NCBI GenBank assembly: GCA_017437065.1 | Contig: JAFSBX010000052.1 | Coordinates: 1-36,598, forward strand | Length of the DNA stretch: 36,598 nucleotides | Direction of reading: 5' to 3' | From: Lachnospiraceae bacterium | Lineage (GTDB): Bacteria; Bacillota; Clostridia; Lachnospirales; Lachnospiraceae | In this document: one piece after another, positions 1,883 through 13,681 of the stretch | Layout of the letters: each line of letters begins with the position of its first letter | Position numbering within the stretch: the first letter of the stretch is position 1 | Notes under the pieces: model-generated | What the model was told of the DNA's origin: nothing | The model's database searches: none | The model's input: the letters and a program-made list of their open reading frames with translations, nothing else | Translations under genes and position numbers: made by a program

Positions 1883-2608
1883 ATGTTTAGGATTGCTATA
1901 TGTGAAGATGAAAGCTCTTTTAGAGAAGAATTAAAGAAAATCATATCTGAGTGTATGCTGAAAAAAGGTCTTGTTTTTAAAATAGATACATATAGCTCTG
2001 GAGAAAAGTTTATAGCATTAGGTATAGAAATGATTCAATATTCTATTATATTTTTGGATATCAACATGAATGAAGTTGATGGCATTATGACTGCTAAGAA
2101 AATTCGAGAAGTAAGTAAAGAGGCGTTTATCATTTTTGTAACGGCATATGTAAACTATACACTGGAAGGTTATAAGGTAGATGCCATACGATACTTGTTG
2201 AAAGGCGGTAATAATTTTAAAAGTGCGATTGATGAGTGCATAAATGCAATTATAGAAAAAATGAATTATACGATAGTAACTAAAAAGTTTAATTTTAATG
2301 AAGGTGTCAGAAAAATTGCATTGGAAAGAGTATTATATATTGAAAGCAGACTGCATAAACTTGAGTTTCATGTCATGGAAGAAGTTATGAAGATTTACAC
2401 CATGTATGAAACTTTGAATAATTTGGATAATGAATTACAAGATACTGATTTTGTAAGAATACATCAAAGTTATCTTGTTAATTTAAAATATTTAATGAGT
2501 GTTGCTAGATACAAAGCTGTATTAACAAATGGAACGGAGTTAGTTATACCGAAAGCTAGATATAAATATGTTAAAGAAAAATTTATTGCATATCGAGGAG
2601 AAGTGTAA
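1883..2608 (+). CDS. agrA: AgrA-type LytTR response regulator
   Basis: This is a cytoplasmic DNA-binding response regulator that takes phosphate from AgrC and activates target promoters. The N-terminal receiver (about residues 1-125) has the acidic pair E8/D9, phosphoacceptor D59 in F-L-D-I-N-M-N, the T in V-T-A-Y and the switch lysine in Y-L-L-K. The C-terminal half (about 140-238) is a LytTR domain with the L-Y-I-E-S and F-V-R-I-H-Q-S-Y-L-V-N motifs. At 241 aa the length is normal for AgrA/VirR proteins. GGAGGAG about 9 nt upstream supports the ATG at 1883. The next gene, agrC, starts immediately after its stop codon, so the two are co-translated. Its likely targets are the paired direct repeats at 4509-4539 and 6785-6814. 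Agr membership rests on context with agrB and agrD. Confidence 0.9.
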   Translation: MFRIAICEDESSFREELKKIISECMLKKGLVFKIDTYSSGEKFIALGIEMIQYSIIFLDINMNEVDGIMTAKKIREVSKEAFIIFVTAYVNYTLEGYKVDAIRYLLKGGNNFKSAIDECINAIIEKMNYTIVTKKFNFNEGVRKIALERVLYIESRLHKLEFHVMEEVMKIYTMYETLNNLDNELQDTDFVRIHQSYLVNLKYLMSVARYKAVLTNGTELVIPKARYKYVKEKFIAYRGEV

Positions 2609-3907
2609 ATGTTTGATTTATTACCAGATGTGTTGATGATATTTTTTGAGATTTTTTGTTGCAAGATATTCTATGAAATATTCGGAGTAATACGCTATAA
2701 AGGTTGGATTAATGTAGTACAGTTAATATTATTAACGGGATGTGCATTGGTATCTGCAAAAGGTTTGTCAGATTTTTTTATTTTAAAGCAAATTTTAATT
2801 ATTGTAGTAGTTGCTGGTTTCATGTTTTGGCATATAAAAATTAGTATGAAAAAGTCATTGATACTTGCTGCTTTATATCAGGGTCTATTGTTAGCGGTAG
2901 ATTATATAGCGTTTTTGATTTATAGTGGGTCAGTTTTAAATAGCAAAGCGGAAGGAACGCAGTATACATTGGAAAGTGTCTTGGTTGTTTTGCTCGGTAA
3001 AGTGATTCTATATTTAAGTATTATTATTATTAAGAAGAGATTCGAAAAAAAATCATCGGAAATGCTTGTTGATATAGAATGGCTCAAATTTTTGTTTTTC
3101 CCTATTTTTACAATAGTTATTATATCGGCTATGCTTTCTGTTTTTGGATATGTTGAGGGATCTAAACAGGCAAATTTATTATTTATTATTGCATTTGGCA
3201 TGGCAGCGATGAATATTGTAGTATTTTATTTGATTAATGATATTATAGGACGAGAAATAAAATTGCATGAAAATGAAATTTTTAAAATACAGGTAAAAAA
3301 TCAAGTAGAGATGTATCAAACTATATCAGAAAGTTTTGATAATCAAAAAAAGAAAACGCATGAATATAAAAATCAGATTATATGTATAGAATCATTATTA
3401 GGAAAGGGAAAATATTTAGAATTAGAGGAATATGTAAAAGGCATTTATGGTCATCTTAATAAAGAATTAGATGCTATAAATACAAATAATGTGATTGTAA
3501 ATGCAATATTAAATACAAAGTATCAGGAAGCGGATGAGAAAGGGATTGTTTTTGTATTTCGGGTTAATGATTTATCTGAGCTTAGAATGAAGGATGAAGA
3601 TATAGTAACTATATTATCCAATTTATTGAATAATGCGATTGAAGCCTGTGAAGAATGCAGTGACAAAAAGGTAATAAAATTGAAATTTGTCAATGAAGAT
3701 AACATGATAATTATTTCAGTAAAAAATACATTTGCCCATTCAATATGCTATGCGGATGGAGAAATAAAATCTTCTAAATTAGTGAAAACAGAAGAGCATG
3801 GGGTGGGTATTAAAAACATTGTTAGAGTTATTGAGAAGTATAATGGTTCATATATTATTAATGATAGTAATGAAGAATTTTACTTTTCAATTATTATTCC
3901 TGCTTGA
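2609..3907 (+). CDS. agrC: AgrC-type sensor histidine kinase
   Basis: This is a membrane receptor kinase, expected to bind the cyclic AgrD-derived peptide outside the cell and phosphorylate AgrA. The N-terminal ~215 residues contain about six hydrophobic membrane segments. After these, H251 in the T-H-E-Y-K-N motif is the likely phospho-acceptor, in the position of the H-D-Y-x-N motif of AgrC/HPK10 kinases. The ATPase domain shows the N box I-L-S-N-L-L-N-N-A-I-E-A and the G box E-H-G-V-G-I-K-N-I. At 432 aa the length is typical. It begins directly after the agrA stop, with its ribosome binding site (GAGGAG) inside agrA. A terminator-like hairpin follows at 3913-3944. Confidence 0.9.
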   Translation: MFDLLPDVLMIFFEIFCCKIFYEIFGVIRYKGWINVVQLILLTGCALVSAKGLSDFFILKQILIIVVVAGFMFWHIKISMKKSLILAALYQGLLLAVDYIAFLIYSGSVLNSKAEGTQYTLESVLVVLLGKVILYLSIIIIKKRFEKKSSEMLVDIEWLKFLFFPIFTIVIISAMLSVFGYVEGSKQANLLFIIAFGMAAMNIVVFYLINDIIGREIKLHENEIFKIQVKNQVEMYQTISESFDNQKKKTHEYKNQIICIESLLGKGKYLELEEYVKGIYGHLNKELDAINTNNVIVNAILNTKYQEADEKGIVFVFRVNDLSELRMKDEDIVTILSNLLNNAIEACEECSDKKVIKLKFVNEDNMIIISVKNTFAHSICYADGEIKSSKLVKTEEHGVGIKNIVRVIEKYNGSYIINDSNEEFYFSIIIPA

Positions 3908-3912
3908 TTTAG

Positions 3913-3944
3913 AAAGTATCTTATAACCAGTAAGGTACTTTTTT
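3913..3944 (+). terminator. Terminator after agrAC
   Basis: AAAGTATCTTA pairs with TAAGGTACTTT (one G-U pair) across a 7-nt loop, and the hairpin is followed by a run of T. It ends the agrA-agrC transcript 5 nt after the agrC stop codon. Confidence 0.7.
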
Positions 3945-4476
3945 GTATGCCTTGCGTAATACGTTGCGTTTGTAAGTAAGCGCTTAGTTTCGGGGGGGAT
4001 TTTATCCACTCCGTTTCTGTTTTATAATTGTAGCTAGGAAACGCAAGCGTTTTGCTCTACATGGAGGCTAGCAATTATGAAAGCCAGCCGTCGGAAGTCA
4101 GCAAAAAACAGAGATTAATGTTTGTTGCAATCAAAACGGATGACGGCACGATTAAGGGCAAGTCACTAAGTTAAGATTAATTTGTGACAAAATCATGATA
4201 AAAAGGTAAACGCTTAATTGGTGCTTACTAAGGAATCTTACTATTCGAAAATTTAATTTAAAAAATTTTGCAGATTCTGCTTTTTTGTTTTTTATCATGT
4301 AGAAGCACAAAGCTAGACTTTCTTTATTTTATCAATATATATCCTATTAACAGCCGTTTTTATGGCTGTTTTATAGCTATGCTTTCGTGATTGTTGAAAA
4401 CATTTGCTGTCAAGGTTTAGTTTATCGTTACGAGATTTTATTTTCGTAGCAAGTTCATTTGCTCAAAGGTGCTATC
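3945..4476. other. agrC-agrB spacer with hairpins, gene remnants
   Basis: There is no convincing gene in this ~530 bp. A 37-codon frame at 4061-4174 (ending D-D-G-T-I-K-G-K-S-L-S) lacks a good ribosome binding site. A GGAGG at 4063-4067 instead serves a 13-codon frame starting at 4077, so this may be a decayed gene. Two terminator-like hairpins are visible: GCAGATTCTGC followed by T6 at 4270-4286, and AACAGCC/GGCTGTT at 4349-4370. The density of hairpins without genes suggests deletion or insertion debris between the two halves of the agr locus. Confidence 0.4.
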
Positions 4477-4504
4477 ATAATCACTTAGGATTCCGAGAGA
4501 TTAT
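4477..4504. repeat. 28-bp imperfect palindrome, copy 2
   Basis: This matches the reverse complement of 403-430 at 27 of 28 positions. It starts ATAATCACT and ends GAGAGATTAT, and it ends 4 bp before the LytTR-type direct repeats of the agrB promoter. It could be the outer end of a mobile element carrying agrAC, or an additional operator of agrB. Confidence 0.6.
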
Positions 4505-4508
4505 ATTG

Positions 4509-4578
4509 CCATTTTCTGTTTAGAAATGTCCACTTTCTGCAAAAAGTTATTGTTTTATATGGAAGGGAGCTTTATACT
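4509..4578 (+). promoter_or_regulatory. agrBD promoter with LytTR direct repeats
   Basis: CCATTTTCTG (4509-4518) and CCACTTTCTG (4530-4539) are direct repeats with a 21-bp period, two helical turns apart, as expected for a LytTR dimer. After 10 bp comes a -35 TTGTTT (4550-4555), then exactly 17 bp, then a -10 TATACT (4573-4578). The weak -35 fits an activated promoter. Transcription would start near 4585, giving a very short leader with AGGAGG almost at the 5' end. The same layout is seen at 6785-6852. Binding by AgrA is inferred. Confidence 0.75.
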
Positions 4579-4597
4579 TAGTGAAGGAGGTGCATTT

Positions 4598-5179
4598 ATG
4601 ATAGCGAAAATGGCATTGAAATTGGTAAATCGGATGGAAGCAGAAAAAATGATAGGTAAGAACGAAAAAGTATATTATGAGTATGCTTTAATTACTATGG
4701 CAGAACGTATTATTACGATTGGAACTGTCCTGTCTGTTGGAATGGTTTTTAGACAGGTTATTCCGACAGTTTGCTTTCTGGTGTTTTTTCTATTATTAAG
4801 GAAACGGACTGGAGGTTATCATGCAGATAAATTCTGGCAATGCTATTTTATGACAATTATAACTTACATAACGGTTATGCAGGTTTCTCTTCTCCTTTTT
4901 GAAAATCCTATAGTAATGTATGTAATGCTATTTTTTTCAGTAATTATTATTGGGGTTATTGGAACAGTAAATCATCCTAACGTGGGTATGGACAGGAGAG
5001 AGTTACAGGAAGCGAAGAAAGTAGCTAGATTGTGTGTTTTTATAGAGACATTGATAATTGCGTTGCTGATTGCTTTAGATATTGACGATTTATATGTATG
5101 CTATATGTCATTGGCTATTATATTGTGTGCAACCTTACTATGTGTAGCTAAAATTGCAAAACAGGAGGTTAAATTATAA
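4598..5179 (+). CDS. agrB: AgrB peptide-processing membrane protease
   Basis: AgrB is a membrane cysteine endopeptidase that cleaves the C-terminal tail of AgrD and forms the thiolactone ring of the autoinducing peptide. The hallmark is G-G-Y-H-A-D-K-F-W-Q-C, with catalytic His and Cys seven residues apart as in staphylococcal AgrB. About five hydrophobic membrane segments follow. The open frame extends up to 4526, but the start at 4598 is preferred. It has AAGGAGG about 7 nt upstream and gives 193 aa, normal for the family, whereas the longer start would lie upstream of the predicted promoter -10. Its stop codon overlaps the agrD start (TAATG), so the two are translationally coupled. Confidence 0.92.
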   Translation: MIAKMALKLVNRMEAEKMIGKNEKVYYEYALITMAERIITIGTVLSVGMVFRQVIPTVCFLVFFLLLRKRTGGYHADKFWQCYFMTIITYITVMQVSLLLFENPIVMYVMLFFSVIIIGVIGTVNHPNVGMDRRELQEAKKVARLCVFIETLIIALLIALDIDDLYVCYMSLAIILCATLLCVAKIAKQEVKL

Positions 5180-5343
5180 TGAAGAAACAGGAGAACGTTG
5201 GTAGTAAGGTTTTAAGGGTAGTTGAAAAAATCGTCCGAAACGAGGTGGAGAAGAACTGTTTTGACTGGCCGCCGGTATGTATGGGTATTTTTCATCAGCC
5301 GAAAAGACCAAAGAATGTAAAAAAAGAAAATAACAGTTTATAA
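5179..5343 (+). CDS. agrD: AgrD autoinducing peptide precursor
   Basis: This short gene encodes a 54-residue precursor of a secreted cyclic peptide signal. It has an amphipathic N-terminal helix (about residues 8-25), then N-C-F-D-W-P-P-V, then C34-M-G-I-F38, then H-Q-P-K-R-P and a basic tail. By analogy with Listeria AgrD (C-F-M-F-V before Y-E-P-K-S-P), C34-F38 would form the five-residue thiolactone ring, with AgrB cutting after F38. There is a second cysteine, C27, and the tail is basic where many homologues have an acidic P-E; both are unusual. The start overlaps the agrB stop by 1 nt, and CAGGAGG in agrB is the ribosome binding site. It is below common gene-calling length limits and easily missed. 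Confidence 0.88.
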   Translation: MKKQENVGSKVLRVVEKIVRNEVEKNCFDWPPVCMGIFHQPKRPKNVKKENNSL

Positions 5344-5351
5344 GAGCATCG

Positions 5352-5384
5352 AAGAAGTTCTAGGATATTCAGTGAGAACTTCTT
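5352..5384 (+). terminator. Hairpin after agrD
   Basis: AAGAAGTTCT pairs perfectly with AGAACTTCTT across a 13-nt loop, 8 nt after the agrD stop codon. The following T run is short (TTTGG), so termination may be weak, or the stem may protect the mRNA. Confidence 0.5.
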
Positions 5385-5437
5385 TGGTAATAGCTATCAA
5401 GTTCGACAAAACAGAACAAGAATAGATTGGTTTTGTA

Positions 5438-5856
5438 AAGGGGCTGTCGGGAAATAGACAGTTCTAAATAGGGCAAGGTACGGCTCACATGAGCCGCTCC
5501 TCGCCCTAACTTTATGTCTATAAAAGAGAAAAAAGATGGCTAACGACAACCATCTTCTCTCCATTACATGTTATAATGTAACTATGTTTAAGCAAAATTA
5601 TTATAACGAATTTTTTGAATTAGGACAACAGAAAATCAACTTTAGTTTTCTTGAATTGAGTTTACCTGATGACGATTCAGTCTATACCCTGAAAAAAGTG
5701 ATGGAGGATATCGATTATTCTGGTCTGCTGGCTCAGTATTCAAATAAGGGAAGAAACGGGTTTAACCCAATCATGATGTATGCGACGGTTGTTTATGCTG
5801 CCATGCGTGGAATCCGGTCTGTTGATACGATTGTGGATCTGTGCAAAAGAGATAGA
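5438..5856 (+). pseudogene. IS1182-like transposase, N-terminal remnant
   Basis: Residues from about 5584 (M-F-K-Q-N-Y-Y-N-E-F-F) to D-L-C-K-R-D at about 5850 match the DUF772 N-terminal domain of IS1182-type transposases, including the block around F-N-P-I-M-M-Y-A. The frame then runs into foreign DNA (the IS3 end) and stops. The probable IS left end is GGGGCTGTCGGGAAATAGAC near 5440. The stem at 5470-5507 (AGGGC/GCCCT outer arms with CGGCTCA/TGAGCCG inside) could block read-in transcription. The catalytic domain is absent, so the protein is inactive. Confidence 0.7.
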
Positions 5857-5870
5857 TTGTCAACACTTTT

Positions 5871-6695
5871 TTAGACAACTTTTTTAAGGTTATTTTCTCT
5901 AAACTGTACCGGTGTCTGATACCCGAGTGAAGAATGAATCCGATGCTGATTATGCCAGTTTACATAATCCCATAACTTTAATCTTAATTCATCTAAATCG
6001 TGAAATCGTTCATTCCATATAAATTCTGTTTTGATGATTTTAAATGTTGCTTCTGCAACTGCATTATCATATGGACACCCTTTATGGCTTAATGAACGTT
6101 CTATGTGAAAAGTTTCCAATATTTCTTCTATCACATGATTTTTGAATTCATTTCCTCTGTTTGTGTGAAACAGTTTGATTTCTTCCAGATTTCCTTCTAC
6201 ACTTTGAAATGCCTGTTTTACCAGTTCGGCAGACTTGTGTTCTCCAGCACTGTAACCGATGATTTCCCTGTTAAATAGGTCAACAAGTACACATACATAA
6301 TTCCATTTTAATCCAACTCTTACGTGTGTTAAATCGCTGACAACCACATTCCGATATTTCTGCTCCTGAAATTTCCTGTTTAATACATTTTCTACTTTTG
6401 ATTCATTACAGTTATCTTTCTGTGGTTTAAACTGTGTGGTTGTATAATTCGATACCATTCCTCCCTGTTTCATGATTCTTCCTATTCGCCGACGCGATAT
6501 CTGTTTTCCCTGATTTTTGAATTCTTTTTTGATTTTTCTGGTTCCATAATTGTGACGATTGTTTTCAAATATTTCTGTAATATCAGAGATTAGTTCAGAT
6601 TCATCTGGAACAGCTGTTGCTTCGTAATAATATGTACTTCTGTTTACCTGTAGGACGCGACACATTGCTGATGGAAGAGCGGCCAAAGCTTTCAT
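5871..6695 (-). pseudogene. IS3-family orfB, catalytic Asp lost, orfA missing
   Basis: This is the catalytic half of an IS3-group (IS150-like) transposase: the HTH_21 region with H-N-Y-G-T-R-K-I, then an rve integrase core. The first Asp is in V-V-S-D-L-T-H-V and the Glu is in N-A-V-A-E. The second Asp, normally H-(S/T)-D-R-G, is replaced by Asn (H-T-N-R-G-N-E-F, codon AAC). No orfA precedes it on the minus strand. The frame is closed by a stop a few codons upstream of 6695, and the flanking DNA is the leader of the metabolic operon. The IS end TGTCAACACTTTTTTAGACA at about 5857 abuts the IS1182-like remnant. The element is therefore probably dead. Confidence 0.8.
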
Positions 6696-6784
6696 CGGAT
6701 TCCATTAAGAGAGTGGAAGGTGGAAAAATAACTATGTCGTTAGAAAATTTTCCGAGTATTGTAGATGTATTTGATGTTTTATTG

Positions 6785-6852
6785 TCATTTTCTGTAATAG
6801 AAGGTCACTTTCTGCCACTGACATTGAAACTTTATATATATATATATATGCT
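6785..6852 (+). promoter_or_regulatory. Operon promoter with LytTR direct repeats
   Basis: TCATTTTCTG (6785-6794) and TCACTTTCTG (6805-6814) repeat the motif pair found upstream of agrB, here with a 20-bp period. The interrupting segment shares AGAA with the agrB copy. After 9 bp comes -35 TTGAAA (6824-6829), 17 bp of mostly TA repeat, and -10 TATGCT (6847-6852). The shared layout with 4509-4578 is the main evidence that AgrA controls the operon starting at 6991. Confidence 0.75.
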
Positions 6853-6990
6853 ATTGTGAAAAAGCTGTATACATGTTGGCATTATTAAAAATTTAGGAGG
6901 AGTTATTATGTTAAGTTGAGAAAATGAATGAGCAGGGAAATTAATCTGCAAATGATAGGGAAAAGTTATAAAAAGAAAAGAGGTAAAATT
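6853..6990 (+). other. Operon leader with minigene
   Basis: The leader is about 130 nt. TTAGGAGGAG at 6895-6904 is a strong ribosome binding site placed over ATG TTA AGT TGA (6908-6919), a three-codon frame. The real first gene starts downstream at 6991 with its own weaker site. The minigene may be a translational regulator or the relic of a broken start. Confidence 0.4.
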
Positions 6991-7935
6991 ATGGAAGCGA
7001 AAAATATGTTAAAAGGAATCGTTTTTTGTGCAATAGCAGGAGTAACATTTGGAGGGCAATGGCCTGTTGCAAAAAAGGCTTTACAGATTATAGATCCGTT
7101 TTATTTCACGTTATTTAGATATTTAATAGTGGCGGTGGTTTTGTCTGTAATTTTATATATGAAAGAGGGGAAAGAAAGCTTTAAGTTTGAAAAAAAAGGA
7201 ATAATCTTATGGTTTTTTGGAACGATGGCATTTACTGCCTATAATTTTCTAGTATTTTTAGGACAGAAATTGATTGGAGATTCAGGAGCTATTGTTGGCT
7301 CTGTGCTAATGGCTTTGATTCCGTTGGTATCTGTTTTAGTAGTTTGGTGTGTTAAGAAAAAGCAGCCGACGAGGTTTACATTAATTAATATTGTAATTGC
7401 ATTCATTGGCGTTGTATTAGTTGTAACAAAGGGAAATTTCAGAATGTTTTTAGATGGAAGTTTAAGTTTGCTACCTATTATTCTTATGTTGATTAGCGTA
7501 ATTGCGTGGGTAATATATACTCTTGGAACAGAATATTTTGCAGATTGGAGTTCATTGAGATATACTACATTGACCTGCATACTTGGAAACATAAGTTCGG
7601 CGGTCATTGTTTGTTTATGTACGAAAATAAATTATATTACTGTTCCTTCTGTAGAAGATATGTCAAAGTTAATTTTAGAAATGCTTTATATGTCTATTGT
7701 TTCAGGAGTGATTGGAGTTTTGGCGTGGAATGCTGGAAATAAATTGTTGACACCAATTAATGGTACACTATTTATGAATTTAGTGCCAATCGTAACGTTT
7801 ATTGTTTCGGTTATTTTGGGATATCAGATTACTGGTATTGAAATTATTGGTTCAATTATTACGATAAGTGCTTTAATAAGTAATAATATGTATCAAAGGA
7901 ACATAATGAAAAACAGTAATAAATGTAACAGATAA
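6991..7935 (+). CDS. EamA/DMT-family transporter
   Basis: This is an integral membrane protein of 314 aa with ten predicted hydrophobic segments in two EamA repeats (about residues 8-140 and 150-300), the normal build of drug/metabolite transporters of the DMT superfamily. The first repeat begins G-V-T-F-G-G-Q-W-P-V-A-K-K, a typical EamA opening with a conserved W-P. The family moves small metabolites, often as exporters; the substrate cannot be read from sequence. An in-frame ATG exists at 6928, but the start at 6991 is chosen because GAGG lies 7 nt upstream and the homologous domain begins there. It is the first gene of the seven-gene operon and probably exports its product or imports its substrate. 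Confidence 0.85.
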   Translation: MEAKNMLKGIVFCAIAGVTFGGQWPVAKKALQIIDPFYFTLFRYLIVAVVLSVILYMKEGKESFKFEKKGIILWFFGTMAFTAYNFLVFLGQKLIGDSGAIVGSVLMALIPLVSVLVVWCVKKKQPTRFTLINIVIAFIGVVLVVTKGNFRMFLDGSLSLLPIILMLISVIAWVIYTLGTEYFADWSSLRYTTLTCILGNISSAVIVCLCTKINYITVPSVEDMSKLILEMLYMSIVSGVIGVLAWNAGNKLLTPINGTLFMNLVPIVTFIVSVILGYQITGIEIIGSIITISALISNNMYQRNIMKNSNKCNR

Positions 7936-7967
7936 GAAAGAATTATAGAATAGAAAGAGTAATAGTT

Positions 7968-8936
7968 ATGAAAATGAAATTAATGGATGTGACACTTAGG
8001 GAGTCAATTTATCTTCCCAATAATAAAATTACTATTGAGGCAGCACAGAATTTAGTAAGGGGACTATCAGAGGCAGGAGTGGATTATATTGAAATAGGTT
8101 ATATTTCTAAAGAGAGCAGTAAAATTTTGCAGGAATACAGTCCGGAACATTACATAGAAGCAATGGAAGAAGCTGTAGTCCCTGATTCAAAATGCAGTTT
8201 AGTGGTTATGCTACATCCGCATTTGTATAGTGACAAAGTTTTAGAGCGGCTTATGAAAAGCAAAATCGGTATGATTAGATTATGCGTACCATATGCTAAA
8301 TTAGAAAGTAGTTTACCAATTATAAAAAAACTGAAAGAAATTAATATCGCAGTAGCAACAAATTTAGTAAGAGCAAGTTGTTTATCATCAGATGATATTT
8401 TGAAATTTGCAAGAACAGTGCAAGAAGCTGGATCTGACTATGTGTATCTTGCAGATTCTAATGGTTCTATGCTCCCTGAAAATGTATCTGAGTTATATCA
8501 CATGTTATCTCAAAAAACTGATATGGAGTTGGGTTTCCATCCTCATAATAATTTAGAGTTAGCCTCTGCTAATGCTATTGAAGCATTAAATAGTGGGGCA
8601 AGAATTATTGATAGTAGTATATATGGATATGGGAAAGGAATGGTGAATCTTTGTACAGAATCATTTGTAGCAATATTACAACAATTGAATAAGTGTCAGC
8701 ATGTAGATTTTGAAAAGATAATTTTGACAACTAAGAGGGCATATCAAGATTTTTTAGTGGCAGTCTCTACAGATATTTTTGATATTAAGGCTAATAGTTT
8801 AGTGAGTGGGTATAAGAACATCAATTTAGATAATCAAAAAGAGCTGGCAAAGTTGGCAAAAGAAAAAAATATTCCTCTTTTTGATTTATTGCTTAAGGTT
8901 CGGAGAGGTGGAAACTTAGAAAGTGTGACAATATAA
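7968..8936 (+). CDS. DRE-TIM aldolase/acyltransferase (HMGL-like)
   Basis: A 322-aa TIM-barrel protein of the HMGL-like (DRE-TIM metallolyase) superfamily, which includes 4-hydroxy-2-oxovalerate aldolase, homocitrate synthase and isopropylmalate synthase. It opens with M-D-V-T-L-R-E-S in place of the usual D-x-T-L-R-D-G: the metal-site Asp and the Arg are kept, but the following D-G is E-S. The metal-binding motif is G-F-H-P-H-N-N, and the later I-D-S-S-I-Y-G-Y-G-K-G resembles the DmpG-type aldolases more than LeuA. It may catalyse C-C cleavage or condensation of a 2-oxo acid; the substrate is unknown. It follows the transporter by 32 nt. No LeuC/LeuD-type isomerase is encoded nearby, so a standard leucine-like elongation pathway is incomplete. 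Confidence 0.8.
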   Translation: MKMKLMDVTLRESIYLPNNKITIEAAQNLVRGLSEAGVDYIEIGYISKESSKILQEYSPEHYIEAMEEAVVPDSKCSLVVMLHPHLYSDKVLERLMKSKIGMIRLCVPYAKLESSLPIIKKLKEINIAVATNLVRASCLSSDDILKFARTVQEAGSDYVYLADSNGSMLPENVSELYHMLSQKTDMELGFHPHNNLELASANAIEALNSGARIIDSSIYGYGKGMVNLCTESFVAILQQLNKCQHVDFEKIILTTKRAYQDFLVAVSTDIFDIKANSLVSGYKNINLDNQKELAKLAKEKNIPLFDLLLKVRRGGNLESVTI

Positions 8937-9059
8937 GTATTTTGGGGATATGTCAAGAAGATTTTAGAAAAGATTTTTGATATGATTTCCTGAAAAAGGG
9001 CGCACTTCACCAATGCTCATAGATAAAATGAAAAAATGAGCCCTATAAGGAGAGTTGTA

Positions 9060-9842
9060 ATGAATAGAAGATGGATCAACATAATCGGTAATGGTACTAA
9101 AAAAATATGGGTATTTCCACGGATGGATTATCGTGGAGATATAGTTAGTGAATTTGCAATATTTAATGAATTTTGTGATAAGGCACAATTTTATATCATG
9201 GATTTACCAGAGAAAATGATTCAAGAGTCGAAAACATGGGATTTGATAGCCGATTTAGCAAAAGAGGTTATTGGTTTAGTTGGAACAGATATACCACACC
9301 CAGATTATATAATTGGATTATCAATGGGCGGTATGATTGCACAAGAATTGCTCTTTTATAAAGAATTTGAGTCAATACCCGTGTTAGTTATTTCGTCCAA
9401 TATTTGGGCTAATGTAAAACTTAAAGCAATATTTTCGTCATGGCTGTTAGTAGTAAAATACTTTAACGTTTCGGCTTTTGATTTAGTACTTAGTTCATGG
9501 ATTTGTGTATCATCTAAACTTCCAATTGATAACACTGAATATTTTGAGTGTGTAGATGAAGAAGAAAAGAAACTTGCAACAAAAAAAATTCTTCTAAGTC
9601 TTAATTCAGTAGCAAGACATGACGCTAGAAAGTTAAGGGAATTGAATAAACTGAATGTTACATTGTGGCGTGGTGAAAAGTCAGTGTTAATATCGCAGAC
9701 GGAAGAAGATGAGTTTGTAAAATATGTTCCAAGCCTTAAAATTATACATGCACCGGAATGTGGCATGAGAATACTTAGCGAAAATAAGAAATTTGTATGT
9801 GATAATTTGAGAGAGTTTATACAATTGGGGGATGAAAAATGA
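9060..9842 (+). CDS. Alpha/beta-hydrolase-fold protein
   Basis: A 260-aa protein with an alpha/beta-hydrolase core. The nucleophile elbow is G-L-S88-M-G-G. The usual acid position in G-E-K-D is Ser here (R-G-E-K-S), and the usual G-H near the C-terminus appears as C-G-M-R-I-L, so the expected Asp and His of the catalytic triad are not at their canonical places. The start at 9060 is chosen over the in-frame ATG at 9036 because AAGGAGAG lies 6 nt upstream. The gene overlaps the next one by 4 nt (ATGA). Its role in the operon could be hydrolysis of a thioester, ester or lactone intermediate, or a non-catalytic function. Confidence 0.75.
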   Translation: MNRRWINIIGNGTKKIWVFPRMDYRGDIVSEFAIFNEFCDKAQFYIMDLPEKMIQESKTWDLIADLAKEVIGLVGTDIPHPDYIIGLSMGGMIAQELLFYKEFESIPVLVISSNIWANVKLKAIFSSWLLVVKYFNVSAFDLVLSSWICVSSKLPIDNTEYFECVDEEEKKLATKKILLSLNSVARHDARKLRELNKLNVTLWRGEKSVLISQTEEDEFVKYVPSLKIIHAPECGMRILSENKKFVCDNLREFIQLGDEK

Positions 9843-10948
9843 AAATTGCAGTATTACCTGGAGATGGAATAGGAAAGGATGTAACAGAAGTTTGTTTGCC
9901 TGTTTTTGAAAAACTAAGTCTTCCAATAGAACTATATTTCGGTGATTTGGGATGGGAGTTTTGGAAAAAAGAGGGAACTCCAGTTCCAGAGAGAACGTGG
10001 CAACTGATAAACGAATGCGATACTGTTTTAGTTGGTGCTGTAACAAGCAAGCCCCAGGAAAAAGCTGAACAAGAGTTGAATAAGGAATTACAAAATAGTG
10101 GACTTAAATATGTTTCCCCAGTCATTCAATTACGACAGAGGCTGAATTTATTTGCAAATATAAGACCTATATATAGCATTTATAGAGAAAAATCTCAAGA
10201 TTTTCCTAAATTTGATTTTACAGTTATAAGAGAAAATACCGAAGGGTTATATGCAGGATTAGATTTTTATCCAATTCCAAATAAATTATATGAATTTGTT
10301 CAGAAGCGTCATTCTATACAGCATGCTTGGCAGATGAAAAAACCAGAGGATGGTGCAATATCATGTAGATTGATAACAAGAGATGGTCTATGTAGATTGT
10401 TACGGTATTCATATGAGTTGGCACAAAAAAAGGGCATTAAGAAAATTATATGGGCAGATAAACCGAATGTGATGAGGAGTTCAGGGCAATTTGTTTTGGA
10501 TTTAATAAAAGAAATTGGTAAAGATTATCCCAAAATCGAATGTGAAGTCAAAAATGTTGATGCAGTTGCTATGTGGATGGTTAAAAAGCCAGAACAATTT
10601 GAAATGATTATATGCGAAAATCAATTCGGGGATATTTTATCAGATTTAGGAGCAGGCATTATGGGAGGTTTGGGATTGGCTGCCAGTGCAAATATAGGAA
10701 AAAATAAATCTTATTTCGAGCCAGTACATGGTTCGGCACCTAAATATGAGGGAAAAAACATAGTTAATCCGTCTGCAATGTTTCTTACAATATCTATGAT
10801 GCTGGAACATACTGGTTATCTTGATGAAGCTAATAGAATAAAAAAAGCTGTTTTTGAGGTTATTAATTTAAGAAAGTGTGTTACTAAGGATCTTAATGGA
10901 TCAGCAACGACTATTGAGATGGCAAAAAGTATTATTGAGAGGTGTTGA
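9839..10948 (+). CDS. Isocitrate/isopropylmalate-type dehydrogenase
   Basis: A 369-aa beta-decarboxylating dehydrogenase of the IDH/IPMDH superfamily, which oxidises and decarboxylates a 2-hydroxy-3-carboxy acid with NAD(P). It starts with the typical L-P-G-D-G-I-G-K-D-V. The substrate loop reads R-E-N-T-E-G-L-Y-A-G, which resembles isocitrate/homoisocitrate dehydrogenases rather than LeuB (R-E-L-T-G-G). The metal/cofactor regions F-G-D-I-L-S-D-L-G-A-G and E-P-V-H-G-S-A-P-K are intact, so activity is likely. The start codon overlaps the upstream stop (ATGA), with GGGGGA as the ribosome binding site. The substrate is presumably a substituted malate made elsewhere in the pathway. Confidence 0.88.
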   Translation: MKIAVLPGDGIGKDVTEVCLPVFEKLSLPIELYFGDLGWEFWKKEGTPVPERTWQLINECDTVLVGAVTSKPQEKAEQELNKELQNSGLKYVSPVIQLRQRLNLFANIRPIYSIYREKSQDFPKFDFTVIRENTEGLYAGLDFYPIPNKLYEFVQKRHSIQHAWQMKKPEDGAISCRLITRDGLCRLLRYSYELAQKKGIKKIIWADKPNVMRSSGQFVLDLIKEIGKDYPKIECEVKNVDAVAMWMVKKPEQFEMIICENQFGDILSDLGAGIMGGLGLAASANIGKNKSYFEPVHGSAPKYEGKNIVNPSAMFLTISMMLEHTGYLDEANRIKKAVFEVINLRKCVTKDLNGSATTIEMAKSIIERC

Positions 10949-10951
10949 GCT

Positions 10952-11617
10952 ATGAATGAATTTTGTAAAAAATTACAATTATTTGATACAGCAAGTATTT
11001 CAGATGCGTTAGATAGTTTATGTATTAATGGTGGATTACAAGGTATTGTGCCACGTACTATGAGTAAAAAAATATGCGGGAAGGCGTTTACTGTTAAATA
11101 TGGTGATGTGTCAGAAGAAGAAAGAAAAATTGGCAGAGCATCAGATTTTATTGATGAAGTTTCAGAAGGTGATGTAATAATATTAGGAAATAATGGGCGT
11201 TATGATTGTACTGTATGGGGTAATATTCTAACGACAATGGCTATTATGAAAAAAGCCGCTGGAACTGTAATAGATGGAGCTTGCCGTGATATTGAGGAAA
11301 TCAATCAAAAGATGTATCCATTATTTAGCAAATCCGTGTATATGAAATCTGGTAAAGGTAGAACAAAGAAAATAGATATTCAAGTACCAATTACTGTAGA
11401 AAATACATATATTGAGCCGGGCGATTATGTTCTAGGTGATTGTAATGGAGTTGTTATTGTACCACAGAATCAGATTGAGATTGTATTATATCGAGCTGGA
11501 TTGATAAAAAGAACGGAAGAAAAAATTATGAATGCAGTTAAACAAGGAATGCGGTTAGAGCAGGCAAGACAAAAATATCACTACCATGAACCGTGGAAGA
11601 ATATGGAGGAAAAATGA
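10952..11617 (+). CDS. RraA-like aldolase/decarboxylase
   Basis: A 221-aa protein of the RraA/4-hydroxy-4-methyl-2-oxoglutarate (HMG) aldolase family. Visible motifs are the N-terminal D-T-A-S-I-S-D-A-L-D-S-L, then G-K-A-F-T-V-K, and the catalytic block V-I-D-G-A-C-R-D-I-E-E-I, containing the Arg and Asp that bind substrate and metal in HMG aldolases. Family members cleave 4-hydroxy-2-oxo diacids or decarboxylate oxaloacetate; some bind RNase E instead, which is unlikely in this operon setting. It lies 3 nt after the dehydrogenase gene and overlaps cinA by 4 nt. Confidence 0.82.
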   Translation: MNEFCKKLQLFDTASISDALDSLCINGGLQGIVPRTMSKKICGKAFTVKYGDVSEEERKIGRASDFIDEVSEGDVIILGNNGRYDCTVWGNILTTMAIMKKAAGTVIDGACRDIEEINQKMYPLFSKSVYMKSGKGRTKKIDIQVPITVENTYIEPGDYVLGDCNGVVIVPQNQIEIVLYRAGLIKRTEEKIMNAVKQGMRLEQARQKYHYHEPWKNMEEK

Positions 11618-12852
11618 AAGCAGAAATTATTGCAGTTGGTACAGAGATTTTACTTGGTGATATCGTCAATACAAATGCACAATTTTTAGCAAAAGAACTT
11701 GCTAATGTAGGTATTGAAGTTTTTAAGCAGACAGTTATAGGTGACAATTCTGAAAGGTTGTCTCAAGCATTTGAGGAGGCTTTAGCAAGTTGTGATATGG
11801 TTATAACTACAGGTGGACTTGGACCAACGGAGGATGATTTGACAAAAGAAACAGCATGTCAGGTGTTAGGGATGTCATCGGTACTGCATAAACCATCTTT
11901 GATTGCATTAGAAGCTTTTTTTAAAAAAGTTGGAAAAGAAATACCAGAAAGTAACTATAAGCAAGTGTATTTTCCAAAAGAGGCTACTGTACTGTCAAAT
12001 CCAAATGGAACTGCACCAGGAGCTATTTTACAGCAAGGAAAAAAAACGATCATTGTGTTACCTGGTCCGCCCAAAGAGATGATGCCTATGTTTAGAAATT
12101 TAGTGAAACCATATCTAATGAAAATGAGTAATGGTGTTATTGTATCAGAGATGGTAAGGGTATTAGGAGTAGGCGAGGGGTATGCTGCTGAGAAATTAAA
12201 GGATTTGATTGAAAATGGGCAGAATCCTACAGTGGCGCCTTATGCAAAGGAAGAAGATGTGGTGTTTAGAATTACTGCAAAAGCAAAGTCTTTTGAGGAT
12301 GCTTTAAAAATGATTTATCCACTGAAAATGGAAGTAAAAAATAGAATGGGTATTGATGCTTATGCAGAGGGAGATGATATTACTATTCAAGCAGTTGTAG
12401 CAGACCTGCTAAAGAGAAAAAATTTGACGATAGCGGTAGCAGAGTCTTGTACGGGTGGACAAATTGCATCAAGATTAGCTGAACAATCAGGCATATCAAA
12501 AAATTTTTTAGAAGGCATTGTTGCATATACGGATGATTCAAAAATTAAACGTTTGGGTGTAAAAAGAGAATCTTTGGAGAAATATACGGCAGTAAGTGAG
12601 AACGTTGCTGAAGAGATGGCAAAGGGTGTGGTAGAAATGGTTGGTGCTGATATAGGTATATCAACAACGGGGTATGCAGAAAAAGGTGATGGTGTATCAG
12701 ATGAGATGTCGGGTATTGTTTTTATTGGAATAATTTATAATGGTAAGACGCATGTACAAAAACATTCTTTCACTGGTAATAGAAATACTGTTAGGAGGAA
12801 AGCTTCAATCGCTGCATTAGATTTCGTGAGAAGATGCATATTAAATGAATAA
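11614..12852 (+). CDS. cinA: CinA-family protein (NMN deamidase domain)
   Basis: A full-length CinA of 412 aa. The N-terminal MoCF-biosynthesis-like domain (residues about 1-170) has T-T-G-G-L-G-P-T-E-D-D-L-T. The C-terminal PncC-type domain (about 255-410) has the A-E-S-C-T-G-G motif of nicotinamide-mononucleotide amidases. In many bacteria CinA recycles NMN or hydrolyses ADP-ribose. The start at 11614 (M-K-A-E-I-I-A-V-G-T-E) matches the family N-terminus and has GGAGG upstream; the in-frame ATG at 11593 lies inside the RraA gene. An operon-embedded copy may be a specialised paralogue serving the pathway, for example in cofactor repair, rather than housekeeping CinA. That reading is inference. 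Confidence 0.9.
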   Translation: MKAEIIAVGTEILLGDIVNTNAQFLAKELANVGIEVFKQTVIGDNSERLSQAFEEALASCDMVITTGGLGPTEDDLTKETACQVLGMSSVLHKPSLIALEAFFKKVGKEIPESNYKQVYFPKEATVLSNPNGTAPGAILQQGKKTIIVLPGPPKEMMPMFRNLVKPYLMKMSNGVIVSEMVRVLGVGEGYAAEKLKDLIENGQNPTVAPYAKEEDVVFRITAKAKSFEDALKMIYPLKMEVKNRMGIDAYAEGDDITIQAVVADLLKRKNLTIAVAESCTGGQIASRLAEQSGISKNFLEGIVAYTDDSKIKRLGVKRESLEKYTAVSENVAEEMAKGVVEMVGADIGISTTGYAEKGDGVSDEMSGIVFIGIIYNGKTHVQKHSFTGNRNTVRRKASIAALDFVRRCILNE

Positions 12853-13681
12853 GATAAAATTTTTTGATCCACATATACACATCAATCCTGACTTGTATTT
12901 TCGGAAATATGATTTATTTACTTTGGGGGAGGAACTTAAAAAGGTTGACAGTTGTGCCGTTTTAAAGAGTCATTTATGTTCAACTATAATACAAGCTAAA
13001 TTGGCACAAAGACTTGGTTATAAAATTTATGGATCTATTGTATTAAATCGTTGTAGTGGAGGCGTTGATATAGAAACTGTTAAATCTGCAATAGTTGCTA
13101 ATGAAAACAACCAAATGCTTATATACATGCCAACATTACTTAACAGCCAAATGAAAATTAAGACAGATGAAACTATCCATCCAATTTTAAATAATCTTTC
13201 CTATGAGGATGAAATTGGAGAAAGTGTTAGTAGACAACATGAAATCTCGGAAATCCTAACAATAGCGTCTAATTATAACATACCTATAGCAACAGGTCAT
13301 ATGACAAAAAAGGATACAGAATTTATTGTCAATTTGGCAATAAAAAAGGGAACAAAAGTTATATTAACACATCCGTTACATAAGATGATTGGATTATCTA
13401 TAAAAGAGCTTAGAGATATAACAAATAGTAAAAATATTTTCATGGAATTGACAATTCTAATGTATGTTTTAGAACAACAAAAGGAGGAGAATATTAGGGA
13501 AGTATTTAACAATATCAATTATAAAAAAATTATTGTATCCAGTGATCTAGGACAAGTGAGAAATTGCTCAGTGACAAAAGGATATGAATTATACTTTAAT
13601 GTGTTAAGTAGATTTCTATCACAAGAAATGGTAGAGTCTGTAATTTATAGAAATATGATGGATATATTTAAAACAAATTAG
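12845..13681 (+). CDS. DUF6282-like metal-dependent hydrolase
   Basis: A 278-aa TIM-barrel protein resembling the amidohydrolase-like DUF6282 family. Likely metal ligands are visible in F-D-P-H-I-H-I-N-P, V-L-K-S-H, T-G-H-M-T, L-T-H-P-L-H and the late S-S-D-L-G-Q, the order expected for amidohydrolase barrels. The central G-S-I-V-L-N segment is typical of the family. The reaction is unknown, but such families hydrolyse lactones, cyclic amides or related bonds. It overlaps cinA by 8 nt and is the last gene of the operon. Twenty-odd bases later IS-type sequence begins, and no clear terminator is seen. Confidence 0.7.
   Translation: MNKIKFFDPHIHINPDLYFRKYDLFTLGEELKKVDSCAVLKSHLCSTIIQAKLAQRLGYKIYGSIVLNRCSGGVDIETVKSAIVANENNQMLIYMPTLLNSQMKIKTDETIHPILNNLSYEDEIGESVSRQHEISEILTIASNYNIPIATGHMTKKDTEFIVNLAIKKGTKVILTHPLHKMIGLSIKELRDITNSKNIFMELTILMYVLEQQKEENIREVFNNINYKKIIVSSDLGQVRNCSVTKGYELYFNVLSRFLSQEMVESVIYRNMMDIFKTN

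Follow-up and report, generated by a model that had tools for sequence, protein, structure and literature searches.

What might a peptide quorum-sensing system of the agr type control when an operon of metabolic genes lies downstream of it? The question is raised by a stretch of 36,598 nucleotides from a Lachnospiraceae bacterium (contig JAFSBX010000052.1, assembly GCA_017437065.1; hereafter, the window), in which the genes agrA, agrC, agrB and agrD precede a seven-gene operon. Two promoters of the window, that of agrBD and that of the operon, carry the same pair of direct repeats, and we think it likely, judging from the sequence, that the locus is a regulon with two promoters controlled by AgrA, a response regulator with a LytTR domain.

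Repeat pair 1 consists of CATTTTCTG (4510-4518) and CACTTTCTG (4531-4539), and pair 2 of the same two half-sites at 6786-6794 and 6806-6814; all lie on the plus strand, and the half-site cores of the two predicted AgrA sites are identical. With periods of 21 and 20 base pairs (bp), 12 and 11 bp remain between the half-sites, which fits the anatomy of LytTR repeat-pair regulons such as the plantaricin (pln) regulon; as there, the same repeats recur within the locus, in the window before two operons. The repeats are followed after 10 bp (pair 1) and 9 bp (pair 2) by a TTG-type -35 box. The boxes of the agrBD promoter are TTGTTT (4550-4555) and TATACT (4573-4578), those of the operon promoter TTGAAA (6824-6829) and TATGCT (6847-6852), again on the plus strand and in both cases with a 17-bp spacer. 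A sequence-only reading of the window had pointed to the shared pair and to these periods, distances and spacers, and each of them was confirmed, with half-sites starting at 4510/4531 and 6786/6806.

The same reading had held that, among the genes it covered, the pair is limited to these two promoters. We scored the window with a matrix whose 26 half-sites came from 13 AgrB-relative loci in other genomes, the window itself being left out. Sites 1 and 2 scored 32.6 and 29.9, nothing else in the window exceeded 14, and the top score in 200 Markov-resampled windows was 22.6. A search of all 156 contigs of the genome (3,913,931 bases), suggested along with the sequence-only reading, found the exact cores with a gap of 8-14 bp only twice, both times in the window, and none in a reversed-pattern control. 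When up to three mismatches were allowed at periods of 20 or 21, the matches with at most one mismatch were the two window sites and one at C124:18131, which scores 24.9 and falls within long open frames. The repeats were also considered as ends of an insertion sequence, a reading that was dropped because the genome holds just two exact copies.

The element recurs in related agr loci. A query in which AgrB was joined to the hydrolase of the operon gave a match (E ≤ 0.001) in 100 of 397 genomes of the family, and among the matches listed nearly all those from other genomes fell on the AgrB part. From these, the 20 top-scoring AgrB-relative loci were taken for comparison, the own locus excluded. 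Their AgrA proteins are up to 82% identical to that of the window, and 18 of them have the order agrA-agrC-agrB; in L111 agrB comes first, and L112 has agrB and agrD only. A direct-repeat scan revealed a pair of the CAYTTTCTGCAA type with a period of 20-21 in most stretches upstream of agrB, and the matrix score of the agrB promoter was above 24 in 14 of the 20 loci, so that the pair is indeed conserved next to agrB homologues, as the sequence-only reading implied. The loci that missed this score were L104, where one half-site is visible, L107, L114 and L115, with weaker repeats, and L111 and L112. In a second sample, the agrB promoter carried a site above 24 in three of five loci (genomes G627, G576 and G708); none of these had been used for the matrix, G576 being close to G322, a source genome. 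Of the other two, L215 stops just upstream of agrB and L216 contains nothing above 24.

Over the window and 40 loci (735,769 bases), 46 matches scored above 24, compared with none in the reversed sequences, and 30 of the 46 were neither an agrB promoter nor site 2 of the window. When the best -35/-10 placement was sought over gaps of 5-14 bp and spacers of 15-19 bp, the gap was 8-10 bp in 38 of the 46 matches and the spacer 16-17 bp in 40. Independent support comes from the direct-repeat scan, from the 30 matches elsewhere, from the spacing relative to the -35 box and from the lack of any reversed match above 24. Together, these sequence comparisons support the view that the repeats form an agr promoter element which is conserved and recurs beside agrB orthologues.

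The four agr genes are intact and adjacent, as indicated by family matches and near-full-length alignment with orthologues, and all lie on the plus strand. The agrA gene (1883..2608) encodes a LytTR response regulator of 241 residues (Pfam LytTR, 2.4e-17, and Response_reg) with 82% identity to AgrA of G277 and G029; the FhRhHRS motif, as given in PMC4227749, reads FVRIHQS in it. The sensor kinase gene agrC (2609..3907; 432 residues; HATPase_c_5, 6.2e-28) has a product 74% identical to AgrC of G277. Next come agrB (4598..5179; Pfam AgrB, 4.8e-35), for the peptide-processing membrane protein, and agrD (5179..5343; TIGR04223, 1.1e-7, above the cut-off), for the signal precursor. AgrD has the predicted ring CMGIF followed by HQPKRP (5278-5310). 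A five-residue ring led by cysteine (C-x4) and followed by HQPKRP or YQPKRP was seen in 13 of 14 AgrD reads, the window included; the frame read in G122 did not show it.

These genes suggest the following scheme. AgrB would cut and cyclise AgrD, and the cyclic peptide would activate AgrC. Two molecules of phosphorylated AgrA would then occupy the direct repeats, which lie roughly two turns of the helix from each other and just before the -35 box, and the bound AgrA would recruit RNA polymerase. Site 1 would thereby drive agrBD in a positive feedback, while site 2 would drive the transporter/aldolase/dehydrogenase operon.

The operon itself is compact, its seven genes lying on the plus strand with intergenic gaps of 32, 99, -4, 3, -4 and -8 bases. 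They encode an EamA-family transporter (6991..7935; Pfam EamA, 4.1e-28), an enzyme resembling HMGL and 4-hydroxy-2-oxovalerate aldolase (7968..8936; Pfam HMGL-like, 1.2e-28, with PDB matches and NCBIfam matches below the cut-off), an alpha/beta hydrolase (9036..9842; weak Thioesterase/Abhydrolase matches below the cut-off), an enzyme of the isocitrate/isopropylmalate dehydrogenase family (9839..10948; Pfam Iso_dh, 3.7e-82, with PDB matches), an RraA-like protein (10952..11617; Pfam RraA-like, 3.7e-35; PDB 3k4i, 2.4e-55), a CinA-type protein (11614..12852; NF001813, 491 bits, above the cut-off) and a DUF6282 protein (12845..13681; Pfam DUF6282, 2.7e-34). The enzymes of this set would point to 2-oxo or hydroxy acids. 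None of the family matches to the operon proteins is to a radical SAM family, and the operon is not a cluster of the CcpM type. A TA dinucleotide run (6833-6848) fills most of the spacer of the operon promoter; strand slippage in it could shift the distance between the -35 and -10 boxes by 2 bp and make the promoter phase-variable. Phase-variable promoters driven by slippage have precedents.

Relatives of the operon were sought in several collections. The DUF6282 protein had a match in 14 of 200 family genomes, its own among them, the others being at most 31% identical. In 392 genomes of the order, the aldolase matched only its own genome at E ≤ 1e-30, and in the joined query the hydrolase likewise had only its own match among those listed for the 397 family genomes, few candidates per genome being scored. 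Two other members of the genus gave aldolase relatives of 23-29% identity and no AgrB match, and a collection of genome contigs gave three aldolase loci of 23-24%. In viral contigs, the hydrolase had two matches of 35-36 residues and AgrA none. In plasmids, the hydrolase had no match, the aldolase matched 361 records with 28.8% identity as the best among the matches listed, and RraA matched 934 records with up to 43.1% among those listed. The G+C content of ten agr and operon genes is 0.28-0.37, compared with 0.40-0.41 in three genes further along; given this low content and the lack of an AgrB match in the two other genus members searched, the region 1883-13681 resembles an acquired island.

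Between agrBD and the operon there are remains of other genes. Two open reading frames, at 5536-5874 on the plus strand and at 5871-6695 on the minus strand, separate them; we take the former to be a transposase-like fragment and the latter an IS3-like transposase. They are followed by the remnant of a helix-turn-helix (HTH) regulator gene (6683..6784, plus strand), whose 34 codons match the middle of the HTH protein of G277 at 20 of 33 positions; in a tblastn search, the match had a value of 1e-7 over 6671-6832. Intact copies of the HTH gene are present in the agr islands of G277, G029 and G269; those of G277 and G029 are each followed by a repeat pair that starts with CATTTACTG. Since the HTH remnant directly precedes site 2, the promoter there probably stems from a larger agr island of the type seen in G277, G029 and G269. 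It is this neighbouring remnant that argues for an island origin; the sequence of the site does not, and it singles out no one copy as the ancestor. We suppose that insertion of a transposable element and a deletion would have broken the ancestral island here, leaving one agr promoter, site 2, before the present metabolic operon.

The prediction of two AgrA-controlled promoters has to be weighed against several observations. The tblastn alignment of the HTH remnant extends through pair 2, and site 2 agrees with the sites behind the HTH genes of G277 and G029 at 34 and 35 of 50 bases, while other agr-type sites (33 compared) reach up to 37 of 50; a specific match of the flank of site 2 to those two sites was withdrawn for this reason. 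The scores of the window sites lie below those of most sites in relatives. As the matrix derives from agrB promoters, its half-sites having been chosen by eye in 13 of the loci that were then scored, the agrB-promoter scores are partly circular. A stricter repeat pattern matched in 144 of the 397 family genomes, and most of these matches look like chance; among the 30 loci returned, the best two by matrix were the agrA promoter of G116 (41.2) and the known island site of G391 (38.1), and two others scored 31.9 and 30.6 although the sequence fetched for them, at most 3 kilobases, holds no agr gene. Because such loci reach these values, we did not let the matrix score by itself decide in comparisons between genomes. 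The genome, for which a contamination of 5.58% is estimated, contains 17 LytTR domains, AgrA being one of them, and two further AgrB-like loci. The view of agrA as the only LytTR regulator therefore holds within the window and fails for the genome. Finally, the sampled genomes yielded no close relative of the aldolase, the hydrolase or the DUF6282 protein, the three operon products searched for in them, so that the link between agr and the operon is a single case and selection for the pairing of site and operon cannot be shown. For the same reason, the operon may have captured the promoter recently, and the link need not reflect a circuit that has been conserved. Control of the operon by agr, as put forward in the sequence-only reading, is thus favoured by the same element in a promoter-competent position, and weakened by the 17 LytTR proteins and the want of a conserved operon link.

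The strongest competitor, although in our judgement an unlikely one, is that site 2 is a fossil agr promoter of a lost island, with the operon being silent or driven by another promoter. The HTH remnant and transposase debris adjoining the site, the TA run within the promoter spacer and the fact that no conserved pairing of site and operon was found in the genomes sampled all agree with it. Against it, both half-site cores, the 9-bp gap and the 17-bp spacer are intact. The cores of site 2 are, moreover, those of site 1, whereas the sites behind the HTH genes of G277 and G029, its possible counterparts, start differently, as described above. We regard it as much less probable again that another LytTR regulator of the genome, and not this AgrA, acts at one or both sites. 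The many LytTR domains and the additional AgrB-like loci speak for such a regulator, but the motif tracks the orthologues of this AgrA, and the paralogous agr locus on contig C99 (L052 6007-6037, minus strand) has a different pair, ATTGTCGATTA twice at a period of 20, which precedes agrB and a small frame resembling agrD. The 15 stretches fetched around other LytTR genes score at most 20.4, and the paralogous locus on C123 has at most a weak repeat pair with a period of 22. As the C99 pair differs and the C123 pair is weak at best, the sequences suggest that each AgrA has its own site. That the repeats are chance or low-complexity matches seems to us the least credible of all. The core is T-rich, scans over many genomes return similar scores in fetched sequences that show no agr gene, and the own genome has its match of 24.9 in an open frame; nevertheless, none of the resampled windows, nor the control search of the genome, yielded anything comparable, and the pair is conserved at agrB orthologues.

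Regulation by AgrA from both promoters therefore remains the reading we prefer, and the islands of relatives illustrate how far such a regulon may extend. Outside the agrB promoter, sites above 24 number eight in G277, nine in G029 and seven in G269, and G197, G144, G342, G391, G171 and G122 have one extra site each; in these counts, the G391 match repeats that of G342, two G277 matches overlap, and the G122 match (27.1), which lies far from its agr locus, may be chance. Some sites are upstream of agrA (G277, G029, G269 and G171). In searches of the whole genomes G277, G029 and G269 with up to three mismatches at periods of 20 or 21, 20 of the 21 matches with at most one mismatch were on the agr contig, and the remaining one was on contig C119 of G277, after the end of an agrC-like gene.

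The gene runs led by such sites in G277, G029, G269 and G144 include radical SAM, TIGR04066-like, acyl-carrier-like, S8-protease-like and ABC genes; for the last three genomes, the names are based on gene position and length and on the first residues of the products. NCBIfam was applied to seven proteins of G277, a hydrolase of G029, one protein of G708, two of G627 and one of G576, and Pfam on ten proteins of G277, G197, G342 and G029. Above the cut-offs, the G277 cargo gave CcpM (568 bits; cut-off 500) and TIGR04066 (296; 200); below them were TIGR04069 (51.4; 70), a QhpE-like protease (87.5; 165) and a CLI_3235-type precursor (25.3; 26). In G277, the first gene behind one agr-type site, before the radical SAM gene, encodes a DUF6033 protein (L096 11083-11862). 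G576 has a CcpM-like gene after agrBD (482 bits; cut-off 500), no second site above 24 was seen in the G322 and G576 loci, and the G708 protein had no NCBIfam match. In G627 (L210 7966-10689, minus strand), a further agr-type site leads to three genes, one for a protein that matches no known kind, one for a C-terminal piece of BioB and one for a geranylgeranyl-reductase-type flavoprotein, the latter two assignments being below curated cut-offs; this cargo, too, looks metabolic.

Regulation of this kind is already known, since the anatomy of pln promoters, the repeats bound by Staphylococcus aureus AgrA and the effects of agr in clostridia precede it. To our knowledge, the pln signal is not a cyclic peptide of the AgrB/AgrD type. 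In the pln promoters of Lactiplantibacillus plantarum, two tandem 9-bp repeats separated by 12 bp stand directly before the -35 and -10 boxes; they recur at several operons of one locus and belong to a quorum-sensing AgrA-like regulator, PlnC/PlnD (PMC2714321). The multi-operon pattern is shared by relatives of our locus, with up to nine sites besides the agrB promoter in one island (G029); the repeat differs, being TACGTTAAT there and CAYTTTCTGCAA here, and here a metabolic operon is among the two targets. According to PMC4227749, AgrA of S. aureus, also a LytTR protein, binds two direct repeats upstream of the agr promoters. The gene order in the window (A-C-promoter-B-D) departs from that of S. 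aureus, the promoter spacers are 17 bp as against 18 and 20 in P2 and P3, and no RNAIII was detected in the window, as no Rfam family reached the gathering threshold. In Clostridium acetobutylicum, Agr controls the neighbouring natural-product-like gene CA_C0082 from its own promoter (PMC10301443); the cargo there is lanthipeptide-synthetase-like, and the phrase "direct repeat" is absent from that text. An influence of Agr on metabolism in clostridia is likewise described in PMC8748961.

Radical SAM peptide clusters of the CcpM/CLI_3235 type stand behind the same type of site in G277, where the families were tested, and, by their look, in G029, G269 and G144, whereas the window has a metabolic operon and no such cluster. 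By titles and openings of abstracts, and in literature in which subscription papers are mostly not covered, we found neither the operator CAYTTTCTGCAA nor agr control of CcpM-type clusters. Nor did these searches turn up the peptide-cluster regulon of the relatives or the metabolic cargo.

Overall, we would tentatively suggest, with somewhat less than even confidence, that these loci form a family of agr islands in which one AgrA operator, conserved as two copies of CAYTTTCTGCAA at a distance of 20-21 bp, acts as an exchangeable quorum-controlled promoter. The cargo behind it would vary, from radical-SAM peptide clusters and secreted proteins to the small-molecule operon found here, and swapping of cargo would give a peptide signal a new metabolite as output. 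The operator gives related agr systems a concrete sequence that can be tested, and with it one may predict peptide-responsive operons, radical-SAM peptide clusters included. Should the operon respond to a synthetic peptide of the CMGIF type, added peptide could switch on the metabolite and its product could be found. If our scenario is true, a quorum-sensing circuit of this bacterium would have gained a new output by promoter capture.

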